Source: Pirellulimonas nuda
GTDB taxonomy: Bacteria; Planctomycetota; Planctomycetia; Pirellulales; Lacipirellulaceae
DNA length: 64,000 nt
Assembly (NCBI RefSeq): GCF_007750855.1
Contig: NZ_CP036291.1
Coordinates: forward strand, 4,340,001 to 4,404,000
Reading direction: 5' to 3'
The notes beneath the pieces were generated by a model. That model was not told where the DNA came from, searched no databases, and saw nothing but the letters and a program-made list of their open reading frames with translations. Position 1 is the first letter of the stretch, and each line of letters opens with the position of its first letter. Below are positions 6,177-61,579 of the stretch, piece after piece. The translations under genes and the position numbers were made by a program.

Positions 6177-6200
6177 TGGATGCTAGGAGTTGAGGTTGGG

Positions 6201-6280
6201 CTGTCAGCTGTTAGCGTTCAGCTTTCAGCCCGAACCCTCCGACAGGCAGGCTGACGGCTGATTGCTGAAAGCTGACCGCC
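6201..6280. repeat. Inverted GCTGAAAGC-word repeat between nqrF and nqrE
   Basis: Left arm 6201-6230 carries GTTCAGCTTTCAGCC and right arm 6250-6280 carries GCTGACGGCTGATTGCTGAAAGCTGACC. The same words flank the S23 gene between sucC and sucD (12872 and 13330), but here no gene lies between the arms, only about 20 bases. It reads as an empty version of that unit or as a REP-like hairpin inside the operon. Confidence 0.7.
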
Positions 6281-11678: not shown

Positions 11679-12866
11679 ATGAAGATCCACGAGTTTCAGG
11701 CAAAGCAACTCTTCCGCGACGCCGGCGTGGCCACGCTCCGCGGGGTGGTGGCCACCACCCCCGTCGAGGCAGCGGCCGCGTTCGACGAGCTCGGCGGCAA
11801 GCTGGCGGTGGTGAAGTCGCAGATCCACGCCGGCGGACGGGGCAAGGGGACGTTCAAGGCAGACGCGTCGCAGCACGGCGTGCAACTGGTCCGTTCGGCC
11901 GAGGAGGCCGAGAAGGCCGCGGCGGGGATGCTGGGGGGCGAGCTGGTGACCATCCAGACCGGCCCCGAGGGGCAGACCGTCCGGCGGGTGCTGGTAGAAG
12001 AGGGCTGCGACATCGCCCGCGAGCTCTACTTGGGGATCGTGGTCGATCGGGCCATGTCGCTGCCGGTGCTGATGGTCAGCACCGAGGGCGGGATGGACAT
12101 CGAAGAGGTCGCCGCCAACACCCCCGAGCGGATCTACAAGGAGCACTTCGTCCCCGGCGAGGGCCTGCAGGCCTACCAGGTGCGGAAGCTGTCCAAGAAG
12201 CTGGGCCTCGAGGGCGCCGCGGCCAAGGCCGCCAGCAAGTTTCTGCCGGCGGTCTGCCGGCTGTTCTGCGAGCTCGATTGCAGCCTGCTGGAGGTGAACC
12301 CGCTGGTCGTCACCGGCGCGGGCGACCTGGTGGCGCTCGACGGCAAGGTGACCTTCGACGAGAACGCCATGTTCCGCCACGCGAAGCTCACGGAGCTGCG
12401 CGACACCTCCGAGGAGAACCCCAACGAGCTCAAGGCGGGCGCCGCGGGGCTGAGCTACGTTCAGCTCGAAGGCAACATCGGCTGCCTGGTCAACGGCGCC
12501 GGGCTGGCGATGAGCACGATGGACATCATCAAGCTGCACGGCGGCGAGCCGGCCAACTTCCTCGACGTCGGCGGCGGCGCCAACAAAGACCAAGTGACCG
12601 AGGCCTTCCGCATCCTGCTGGGCGACAAGAACGTCAAGGCGGTGCTGGTGAACATCTTCGGCGGCATCATGCAGTGCACCACCATCGCGAACGCGGTGCT
12701 GGCCGCCTACAAAGAAGTCGGCTTCAACGTCCCGCTGGTCGTCCGGCTCGAAGGGACCGAGGTCGAAGAGGGCCGCAAGATCCTGGCCGAGAGCGGCGTC
12801 GACATCATCTCCGCCGAGGGGCTGACCGACGCGGCCAAGAAAGTAGTCGCCGCCGCCGCGGCGTAG
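11679..12866 (+). CDS. sucC: Succinate--CoA ligase (ADP/GDP-forming) beta subunit
   Basis: 395 residues from the ATG giving [17 protein letters not shown], the standard SucC start; the frame is open further upstream but without family sequence. TCA-cycle enzyme that forms ATP or GTP from succinyl-CoA. ATP-grasp marks: [15 protein letters not shown] near residue 46, [15 protein letters not shown] near 109, EVNPLVV near 205, [13 protein letters not shown] near 222, and the CoA-ligase domain with [13 protein letters not shown] near 327. The partner sucD lies 497 bases downstream instead of adjacent, because a repeat-flanked S23 gene sits between them. Confidence 0.96.
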
Positions 12867-12871
12867 CCGCT

Positions 12872-13330
12872 GGCTTTCAGCGGTCAGCTTTCAGCTTTCA
12901 GCTTTTTGGGAGAGCGGCTTGAAGGATTTTCGCGATCTGGTCGTTTGGCAGAAATCGCATGCGTTTACGATGGAGGTTTATCGTGCTACTAGCCGCTTCC
13001 CCGACACTGAACGGTACGGGTTGACCAGCCAACTTCGCAGGTCCGCGGCTTCGATTCCTGCAAACATTGCCGAAGGCTGCGGGCGAGGGAGCGACCCAGA
13101 CCTACGCCGGTTTCTCCAGATGGCGATGGGCTCGGCATCCGAGTCGGAGTACCACATCCTGCTGGCAGAAGACCTCGAGTACATCAAGTCGGACAAAGCC
13201 GAACGATTAGCGAGTGGAGTCCAAGAAATCAAACGGATGCTCGCCACCTTCATCGCAAAACTCGCCCCAACCAATCCACCGAAACCCCGCGCGTAAATAG
13301 CTGACCGCTGAAAGCTGATAGCTGAAAGCC
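12872..13330. mobile_element. Repeat-bounded unit carrying an S23 / four-helix-bundle gene between sucC and sucD
   Basis: Left edge 12872-12904 (GGCTTTCAGCGGTCAGCTTTCAGC...) and right edge 13298-13330 (GCTGACCGCTGAAAGCTGATAGC...) are imperfect inverted copies of one another. They enclose a single 125-residue gene. The unit separates two genes normally translated together. No transposase is inside, so if mobile it must move by means supplied elsewhere. The same words occur without a gene at 6201-6280. Confidence 0.55.
12919..13296 (+). CDS. Four-helix bundle protein (S23 / 23S rRNA intervening-sequence family)
   Basis: 125 residues starting at a TTG with a good GGGAG ribosome site about 6 bases before it. 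The sequence KDFRDLVVWQKSHAFTMEVY, then FPDTERYGLTSQLRRSAASIPANIAEGCGR, is the classic pattern of the S23/bIVP family of four-helix bundle proteins, whose function is unknown. The fold is related to Avd of diversity-generating retroelements, but no reverse transcriptase or repeat cassette is visible nearby. The gene is bounded by GCTGAAAGC-type inverted repeats and placed between sucC and sucD, which suggests late insertion. Family is certain; role is not. Confidence 0.9.
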   Translation: MKDFRDLVVWQKSHAFTMEVYRATSRFPDTERYGLTSQLRRSAASIPANIAEGCGRGSDPDLRRFLQMAMGSASESEYHILLAEDLEYIKSDKAERLASGVQEIKRMLATFIAKLAPTNPPKPRA

Positions 13331-13363
13331 AAAGCGAAGCGCAGCCGCACCACCCACGCCGCC

Positions 13364-14254
<891 letters not shown>

Positions 14255-14643: not shown

Positions 14644-15304
14644 GTAAGCGCCCACCAGCACCATTGGCTTGTCAGCTTGCCGGCGCCACTCACGCCGTCC
14701 GCATCTTGTGCCGAGCCTGCTTGCGATCGGCCTTGTCGCGGCGTTCTTCGACGCGGTACTGGCGGATGGCTTCGGGGTGCTGCGCGCGCCAGACGTCGGG
14801 GCGGAGCTGATGGTAATCGGTCTCTCCGGCCAACAGCCGATCGAGCACGTCCTTAAGGTAGGCCCACACGTCCAGGTCGTTGCGCACCGCGCTGGCCACG
14901 AGCGTGAAGAAGTCGGCCGTCCGCTCTCCGGCGCCAACGCTCCCCACAAAAATCCAGTTCTTCCGCCCCAGGGCTATCTGCCGCATCAACTGTTCGACGT
15001 CATTATTGTCGATCGGCATCCGCCCGTCCGAGAGGTACAGCCGCAGCGCGTCCCAGTGGTTACGTAGGTAGCCCAGCGCCTGGCCGAACTTGCCGGTCGG
15101 GAGCACGCGGGTTGCTGTGTCGGTTTCGAGCCACGCGCCGAGCGATTCCCACAGAGGGACCGCTTCGCGCTCGCGCAGCGCCCGCCGCTCATCGGCCGGC
15201 AGCGTCGCGGCCTCGGTCTCGATCGCGTACAACGCCCGGAACCTGGCCAGCACGAGGGCCGCTTCGGTGGGGTATCCGTAGAGGCAATCGGGACCGACCA
15301 CCAA
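14644..15304 (-). mobile_element. IS66-family insertion sequence remnant (C-terminal transposase fragment)
   Basis: The minus strand encodes a 204-residue fragment (14690-15304) with PIDNNDVEQLMRQIALGRKN and WIFVGSVGAGERTADFF, the DDE C-terminal block of IS66 TnpC transposases, which are normally about 500 residues. The N-terminal two thirds, TnpA and TnpB are absent. An in-frame stop lies just upstream, so this is a dead remnant. The right-hand terminal sequence GTAAGCGCCCACCAGC at 14644 is the usual IS66 end, and it abuts the broken membrane gene. Confidence 0.85.
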
Positions 15305-17066: not shown

Positions 17067-18196
<1,130 letters not shown>

Positions 18197-59949: not shown

Positions 59950-60079
59950 CGAAAAGGCACAAAAAGCACAAAGGACGGAAAGACGAATGACCAAGTCGCA
60001 ATGACCGATGCACCTACCGTTCGTTCTAGGGAAACGAAGTTCGGTCGTCCTTTTTGTGCATTTTGTGCCTTTTCGTGGC
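59950..60079. repeat. Inverted GCACAAAA/TTTTGTGC word pair upstream of polX
   Basis: GCGAAAAGGCACAAAAAGCAC (59950 on) is the approximate reverse complement of GTCGTCCTTTTTGTGC...GTGCCTTTTCG (60044-60079). Similar CTTTTCGTGGCAA words occur near 49320. No gene in this 249-base gap. Confidence 0.65.
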
Positions 60080-61367: not shown

Positions 61368-61415
61368 GCGAGGTGAGTGGTGAGTCGTGGGTAGATTCGT
61401 TAATGGTAGTCATTA

Positions 61416-61484
61416 GTGAGCCGGGGCGTCCCCGCCCCCGGCGGGTTACGAAACGCCCCGGGGGGCGGGGACGCCCCGGCTCAC
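61416..61484. repeat. Perfect 24-bp inverted repeat between divergent genes
   Basis: Arm 61416-61439 (GTGAGCCGGGGCGTCCCCGC...) and arm 61461-61484 are fully complementary, with a 21-base loop that itself contains GGCG/CGCC pairs. It sits between the divergent GGQ and PH-domain genes. It fits a REP or MITE-like element. Confidence 0.9.
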
Positions 61485-61579
61485 ACGGGCTCAACCTATC
61501 GACAGCGGTTGGCGGATGCATAAAACTCAAGCGGCGTGGGCATCCGACCCACCACTCACCATCCTCGATTCACCCCCCA

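Follow-up and report, generated by a model that had tools for sequence, protein, structure and literature searches.

Genes of the S23 family (PF05635), a widespread protein family of no known function, are flanked in many bacteria by inverted arrays of a tandemly repeated heptanucleotide word, and by sequence comparison the distribution of the words across phyla agrees with the S23 protein tree. We consider it likely that gene and arrays together form a transferable unit in which a putative S23 ring protein recognises the array of its own unit, and that paired arrays lacking a gene are dependants of such units. The case from which the analysis departs lies in a stretch of 64,000 nucleotides from Pirellulimonas nuda (contig NZ_CP036291.1, positions 4,340,001 to 4,404,000), called the window in the following, for which an initial annotation had described an S23 gene between repeats. 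This case is a single instance of a wider phenomenon. Beyond that annotation, the repeat is not one family, since each S23 lineage has its own word.

In the window, the unit including its arms occupies positions 12871-13331 (TCAGCNN on the left, GCTGANN on the right) and is enclosed by two host genes that lie outside it, sucC upstream (11679..12866, plus strand; NCBIfam NF001913, E 6.4e-162) and sucD downstream (13364..14254, plus strand; NCBIfam NF004230, E 1.2e-139). The left arm (12871..12905, plus strand; lag-7 score 17) consists of a short lead-in and four TCAGC+NN heptads, namely TCAGCGG followed by three copies of TCAGCTT at 12877-12904. A plausible ribosome site, GGGAG (12908..12912, plus strand, read from the sequence), stands six bases 5' of the TTG start of a gene of 125 aa annotated as S23, 23S_rRNA_IVP or four helix bundle (12919..13296, plus strand; PF05635, E 1.5e-39), and the right arm (13299..13331, plus strand; lag-7 score 13) carries four GCTGA+NN heptads inverted relative to the left arm. 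The 125-residue S23 gene with a ribosome site of its own that had been described between sucC and sucD is thus borne out by the PF05635 match, the GGGAG and the NCBIfam assignments of both flanks. The enclosing inverted repeats likewise stood, as none of 5000 dinucleotide shuffles gave an equally good arm pair (score 23 vs 16 for the best shuffle); their description as single GCTGAAAGC words did not, because they are really tandem heptads of TCAGC plus two bases. The inverted alignment of both arms extends over 33 nt, with mismatches confined to the free heptad positions. Allowing up to two mismatches, AGCTGAWAGCTGA occurs 12 times in the window vs 1.24 expected, with seven places at the S23 locus, four in the nqrF/nqrE gap and one elsewhere. 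The four places in the gap, between genes confirmed by NCBIfam, agree with the earlier statement that a copy of the repeats without a gene stands between nqrF and nqrE. This pair (6200..6279, no strand assigned) has TCAGC on the left and GCTGA on the right, the same polarity as the S23 unit, and as RNA it forms one long strong hairpin (z -5.57). The S23 locus as RNA also folds more strongly than its own shuffles (z -3.22). An array search found a further gene-less inverted pair in the window (61372..61560, no strand assigned); it is of the GTGAGTG type, the one also present around L004, another S23 gene of P. nuda.

The complementary ends of the S23 locus form a stem around the S23 ORF, as in an intervening sequence (IVS), and the insertion site is sucC/sucD rather than a helix of 23S rRNA. 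The same-strand ORF between the arms, to which the family scan was applied, is S23, and nothing recognisable as a transposase, a nuclease or a reverse transcriptase was noted between the arms. Judged by an encoded transposase, and for the ORF scanned, the unit is thus not an insertion sequence or MITE. Two ORFs near the unit and outside it, at window positions 17067-18020 and 14690-15304 (both minus strand), resemble IS110 and IS66 transposases by eye.

The window protein scores 134.9 bits against PF05635 (cut-off 33.8) and matches TIGR02436 with E 2.1e-39. Its predicted structure is a four-helix bundle (four helices, mean pLDDT 95), and the nearest folds to the model are those of Xcc0516 (2gsc; Foldseek E 1.2e-8) and BT_0352 (2rld). 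Both entries contain five chains as deposited, and the available text of PMC4990558 calls the 2gsc protein a homopentamer. Next in the Foldseek list is Avd of diversity-generating retroelements (DGR; 4dwl, TM 0.74 by query length, E 0.012), and chains of DGR complexes such as 8ubb and 8ub7 are matched as well. The fold of Avd is the same as that of S23 according to Foldseek, and a likeness of PF05635 to Avd is mentioned in the available part of PMC10053308. With 22.1 bits against the NCBIfam Avd equivalog, far under the cut-off of 80, the window protein is not an Avd by this measure.

A search of the P. nuda genome with PF05635 returned six S23 places, the sixth with a gene broken by two stops. 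By eye, all six have inverted arrays of approximately seven bases (looser at L003), each with a different word: GGGGCGA, AGCTGAA, GGGGGCT, GTGAGTG, GATGATA and TTGCAAA. The TCAGC pattern occurs at only one of them, that of the window. A single repeat family moving all S23 genes was therefore rejected, the six places having six words. At L004, L005 and L006 the S23 units apparently lie beside or inside tight housekeeping pairs, the neighbours recognised by eye being pyrH/tsf, 2-oxoacid:ferredoxin oxidoreductase genes and the start of rpoC.

Gene-less arrays are spread through the same genome. A TCAGC-type 13-mer, allowing one mismatch, is found 109+88 times vs 13+11 times for the reversed control. 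The 54 typed TCAGC places among the 100 listed include ten minus-then-plus pairs, one of them that of the window, and no plus-then-minus pair. Perfect matches to AGCTGANAGCTGA, 40 among those listed, all lie outside G000:C1 1.33-4.35 Mb and hence in about half of the chromosome. For a census of arrays we used 60 stretches and the window, together 1.264 million bases of this genome. At a score of at least 12 there were 31 arrays of period 7 vs 2 to 7 at periods 4, 5, 8, 10, 11 and 13; multiples of three were frequent (20, 25, 34 and 42 arrays at periods 6, 9, 12 and 15), as were arrays of period 14 (30). Of the period-7 arrays found at a looser setting, 29/76 had an inverted partner no more than 600 nt away, compared with 3/25 at period 8, 3/27 at period 11 and 21/51 at period 10; the period-10 inverted arrays of this genome are a separate hairpin class. 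The sample lists 18 heptad pairs. In the 17 beside that of the S23 unit in the window, the arms are separated by 7-152 nt, which leaves no room for an S23 gene. For types that flank an S23 gene of this genome, the polarity of the gene-less pairs matches that of the gene's own arms in 12/12 cases. Gene-less copies throughout the genome are also a feature of REP/RAYT systems, the copies here being heptad pairs and not REP palindromes.

The six S23 words cover 46/77 arrays of the sample, with 21, 11, 15, 5, 3 and 0 arrays for the individual words, counts that overlap between the G-rich ones; no sample array corresponds to the word of L006, whose gene is broken. Forty words from other genomes that are unlike those of P. 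nuda match a mean of 1.75 sample arrays each. Six random words from other genomes of the family cover a mean of 23.8 arrays and reach at least 46 in 5/500 draws; the outcome of this test is modest. Some inverted heptad pairs without a gene have words that resemble none of the six S23 places, namely GTTGCCA and AATGACC (L284 2850-2959, L247 14541-14620 and L248 11924-12017). Inverted arrays with a period of 9-10 (CGCCGATGGACGCGGATGAA; CACGAAAAGGCACAAAAAAG) stand at L252 18076-18147, L257 12864-12934, L260 13790-13899 and L247 1064-1195, and an array of the same class lies in the window at 59952-60073.

We then compared 174 S23 loci: five from P. nuda (L006 was left out because it fails the profile of the script), 89 from its family (29 plus 60, mostly the better-scoring of the places listed) and 80 from many phyla (the 80 top-ranking among 410 matches to the window protein). 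On at least one side of the S23 gene, a period-7 array was present no more than 350 nt away at 140/174 loci, with 5/5, 66/89 and 69/80 in the three sets; 34/174 have none at the threshold used. Such arrays were found upstream at 123/171 and downstream at 88/171 loci, and on both sides at 74. Periods 5, 6, 8, 9, 10, 11 and 13 gave only 0 to 13, period 14 being the double of 7. In P. nuda, 121/4000 random 350-nt windows and 29/519 regions upstream of long ORFs gave a period-7 array, compared in the same test with 61/94 upstream and 54/94 downstream flanks of S23 genes from this genome and its family. At a stricter score, arrays were present in 49/110 and 32/111 near flanks vs 4/101 and 3/104 flanks 900-1200 nt away. 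Ten conserved 23S words had no match at any of the 174 loci.

Where both sides carry an array, 65/74 loci have inverted copies of one word, five have direct copies and four are unclear. Among two-sided loci with words other than TCAGC, the two flanks matched in inverted orientation in 47/47 cases vs 208/925 pairs with swapped partners; a first, cruder flank test had given a median of 13.5 for matched vs 9.0 for swapped flanks, with the matched flank best of its row in 32/108. TCAGC words run forward in 52 and backward in five upstream arrays, and forward in two and backward in 29 downstream arrays. The arrays have a median length of 4.3 units, with 4-5 units in 56/141 upstream and 30/94 downstream cases. 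The two less conserved positions of the heptad are adjacent at 37/54 loci, many of them of TCAGC type and hence not independent, where one third is expected, which corresponds to five fixed and two free bases. In-register pairing of the free bases was considered as a conserved trait and rejected, with 18 matches at 12 S23 loci vs a mean of 18.3 after shuffling of the order; five gene-less pairs gave six matches vs 5.8. Compared with swapped partners the S23 loci did show an excess (18 vs 11.2; 6/1000 swaps as high), for which base composition alone could be enough. Since the free bases of the two arms are out of register, conservation does not extend to a perfect hairpin.

For a further set we drew 20 S23 genes, each from a different genome, from the better-scoring places listed; together they represent 17 families of the phylum. 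The prediction, fixed beforehand, was that at least half would have a period-7 array and that matched flanks would exceed swapped ones. Period 7 was found at 11/20, at nine of them on both sides, and matched flanks were best of their row in 15/20 (median 20 vs 9). The other 9/20 include at least four with period 8 by eye (L380, L388, L393 and L395), and scoring for period 8 identified six upstream and six downstream flanks; the unit is thus not always 7 nt long. Among plasmids, a search for near-identical replicons that differ in the presence of S23 yielded 23 records, all with less than 60% identity to the window protein.

The relation between word and protein was assessed at 134 loci with arrays and a near-whole S23 gene. 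Pairs of loci with the same word make up 1-2% below 50% protein identity, rising to 17%, 35% and 53% above it. In tests that ignore kinship, the Mantel correlation was r 0.49 for all loci (0/2000 permutations), 0.40 for the family alone (0/2000) and a weak 0.19 for the cross-phylum set alone (17/2000); the TCAGC label, on a tree of 166 S23 proteins with few columns and many open forks (59 with TCAGC, 81 with other arrays, 26 with none), required 13 changes vs a mean of 45 after shuffling (0/500); and TCAGC triplets occurred in 42/120 genomes of the phylum with S23 vs 7/124 without (n=244), two or more matches in 34/120 vs 1/124. The word of a cross-phylum S23 gene resembles that of the nearest family protein with a similarity of 4.70 vs 3.37 at random. 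For family S23 genes and their nearest cross-phylum proteins there was no gain (3.31 vs 3.37), because the cross-phylum set is mostly TCAGC. The one S23-free genome with several matches has 16, all in a single array. The reversed control pattern was found in 19/244 genomes, 14 of them with S23, and gave 111 matches vs 790. Together with the seven S23-free genomes, these control matches indicate that some background of TCAGC-like arrays exists.

Sites with and without the unit were compared at two places. In the family, 29 of 30 sucC-sucD gaps were readable; 24/29 are without S23, and S23 is present in five (G000, G040, G042, G019 and G012), each time with arms, so that an S23 gene free of repeats was not met at this position in these relatives. 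The arms are of TCAGC type in G000, G040, G042 and G019. In G012 the word is of GTTAGTC type and the S23 protein belongs to another clade, which implies that the gap was entered at least twice or that the unit was replaced. Three of the five S23 proteins group together (86/80), with the window protein in the same unresolved part of the tree, and part of the pattern may therefore be vertical. The two species of genus g13 differ, the unit being present in one and just an arm-like array in the other. By eye, several S23-free gaps contain either hairpins of 8-9-nt units with no gene inside or a lone array resembling one arm; G041, which shares its genus with G040, is among them. The sucC-sucD gap of G009 (L209), a genome with seven S23 places, contains a gene-less GAATGAC pair.

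The second place is the thrH-recQ junction of Nitrospira. Of 32 genomes searched 31 gave some match; 26 loci were examined, and at 24 both genes could be read. TCAGC arms enclose S23 at 5/24, in one of these in the opposite orientation; 7/24 are junctions of 7-30 nt, 5/24 hold shorter pieces and 7/24 a DUF559-like ORF (checked with Pfam for L335). When the reversed unit (L331, G288) is compared with L326 (G286), the flanks are 89-95% identical on one strand and the S23 piece is 77% identical on the other, with the borders of the reversed piece falling within the arms. This lower identity of the piece favours an independent arrival no less than a flip. TCAGC-type arms around the DUF559-like ORF are clear on both sides at L334, L335, L344 and L347 and weak or one-sided at L341, L342 and L348. 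These ORFs also bear CCTCCCCTTTGTAAGGGGAGG-type ends of their own and could be nested or alternative cargo. Between Nitrospira sites with and without the unit, the ends share heptad letters and no duplication was separable from the arms.

Inverted arms are not restricted to S23. GxxExxY genes (PF13366) of the same genome family have arms of 8-9-nt units (CACGGAGAA-like). In the 28 usable of 30 loci (L296-L325), period 7 was absent (0/28), period 8 was found at six upstream and nine downstream flanks and period 9 at nine and ten; matched flanks reached a median of 20.75 vs 10.5 and were best of their row in 14/28. The period hence varies with the protein family, and a general intergenic property is thereby made less likely. 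Gene-less hairpins of GxxExxY type were noticed by eye in the sucC-sucD gaps of G007, G010, G001, G006, G034 and G037. DUF559 flanks (15/23 listed places, after weak, fused and short ones were left out) were best of their row in 6/15, with a median of 16 vs 10.5, and had no shared period, period 12 occurring upstream in 5/15. In the available text of PMC8934634, on reverse transcriptases, GxxExxY is mentioned only beside a CRISPR case.

Several known systems resemble the unit in part. In REP/RAYT systems, a gene is flanked by short inverted repeats of which many gene-less copies exist in the genome; the RAYT is a Y1 transposase and the REPs are palindromes. The unit described here differs in that S23 is a four-helix bundle, not a Y1 transposase, and the repeats are heptad arrays. 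TRAP is a ring that reads short words set at regular intervals, with spacers of two bases, along one strand. TRAP and S23 are different proteins, and that an S23 ring would read its array alike is an idea. The intervening sequences of 23S rRNA share with the unit the protein family and a gene between complementary, stem-forming ends, but they are located in rRNA, from which RNase III excises them, whereas the S23 unit here lies in a protein operon. For Coxiella burnetii, the available text of PMC4990558 describes tandem heptameric GACAGAT repeats immediately before the start of S23p and regards the IVS as a selfish element; nothing was met in that text that would connect S23 with heptads in general, assign words to lineages or describe copies lacking a gene. 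According to the parts of the articles at hand, 23S_rRNA_IVP genes also occur in cas loci (PMC3936711) and in rRNA insertions of CPR bacteria (PMC11270868).

Heptameric repeats as such have been described, in the sections available, for Xanthomonas and Nostoc (PMC4692102, where they are called over-represented in bacteria) and for Beggiatoaceae (PMC4679880), and paired tandem hepta- and octanucleotides were reported as 'global regulator binding sites' of Geobacter metallireducens (PMC2700814). These share tandem units of 7 or 8 nt with the S23 arms, and the Geobacter sites are paired on opposite strands at variable distance. They differ in that no protein partner is named for any of the three in these texts; S23 and four-helix proteins are not mentioned in the portions of PMC4692102 and PMC4679880 at hand, nor four-helix proteins in that of PMC2700814. 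We recognised no article that ties S23 genes generally to heptad arrays in a search that left most subscription journals outside its scope, so that absence from the literature is unproven. S23-bearing intervening sequences are already known; the literature found does not extend to a lineage-specific word or to gene-less partners.

Under the explanation we favour, the unit would be a hairpin with an S23 gene in its loop, each arm being made up of tandem copies of a 7-nt word with five fixed and two free bases; the polarity of the arms would be fixed relative to the gene, the word would belong to the S23 lineage, and gene-less arm pairs would be non-autonomous relatives of S23 units. S23, as a five-membered ring of four-helix bundles, would recognise the array of its own unit, probably as a single strand of RNA or unpaired DNA, each subunit taking one 5-base core with two-base spacers in between. 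The hairpin marked in this way may be copied or recombined into new intergenic places by host enzymes, with replication, recombination or a reverse transcriptase as candidate helpers, the gene being taken along or left behind. The arrays with their inverted pairing and fixed polarity, the matching of protein and word and the recurrence of the same protein-word pair in many phyla emerge from the comparison of loci, as do the presence or absence of the unit and its opposite orientation at one site. We infer from them that S23 may bind the array, may do so as a ring and may move the unit through its own action, and the helper enzymes are named in the same spirit. The small mobile or hitch-hiking unit suggested by the initial annotation gains support from the matching arms at S23 genes in many phyla, from the dispersed gene-less arm pairs of the same polarity and from the Nitrospira junction, which may lack the unit or have it in either orientation, bordered by the arms; no movement in progress was witnessed in the site comparisons.

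S23 could instead be a resident RNA-binding regulator whose targets, the arrays in its own and other mRNAs, are kept by selection and do not move under the influence of S23. The position of arrays in intergenic and operon-internal places such as sucC-sucD and nqrF-nqrE would suit such a role, as would the sharing of a word by an S23 gene and gene-less places, and five fixed plus two free bases suggest reading by a protein over base pairing. We nevertheless regard this as unlikely, because related S23 proteins occur with the same word in many phyla, unit types turn over at one gap, a unit has opposite orientations at a fixed site and several S23 lineages with different words reside in one genome. 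A similarly small probability is given to the view that the arrays are slippage products or recombination-prone hairpins spread by other means, with S23 as mere cargo in the loop. That a DUF559-like ORF replaces S23 at 7/24 Nitrospira sites, in some of them between two-sided TCAGC-type arms, that most arm pairs of P. nuda are without a gene and that heptameric repeats are over-represented in bacteria (as stated in the available part of PMC4692102) would all be compatible with it; however, a word that tracks the S23 protein sequence is not expected of a passenger, multi-copy TCAGC arrays are nearly missing from S23-free genomes, and the arms of GxxExxY genes are of 8-9 nt and never of period 7. 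Least of all do we believe in an ordinary vertical insertion, with S23 long resident at sucC-sucD in the family and the repeats local and meaningless. The same location of S23 in G040, G042, G019 and G012 and the grouping of three of the proteins agree with it, but the many readable gaps that lack S23, the difference between the species of g13, the other clade and word of G012 and the arms in all five cases speak against it, and the general link between S23 and heptad arms contradicts it.

Somewhat short of an even chance, in our estimate, is the more specific proposal that bacterial heptanucleotide repeats have in S23 proteins their missing partners, as pentameric rings with one 5+2 word per subunit and a word that changes as the protein diverges. 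In that case dozens of mutually distinct protein-repeat pairs would coexist as independent selfish units, several per genome, which would move between phyla and leave gene-less hairpins in operons. The intervening sequences of rRNA would be the special case of units that landed in rRNA, and other small orphan families such as GxxExxY with its 8-9-nt arms would share the plan. The heptanucleotide repeats of bacterial genomes have long been puzzling, and a tie to S23, with one word for each protein lineage, makes both directly testable. It would explain why S23 genes appear in unrelated places and would provide a common frame for rRNA intervening sequences and the paired sites of Geobacter, and from the natural protein-repeat pairs a recognition code could be read.
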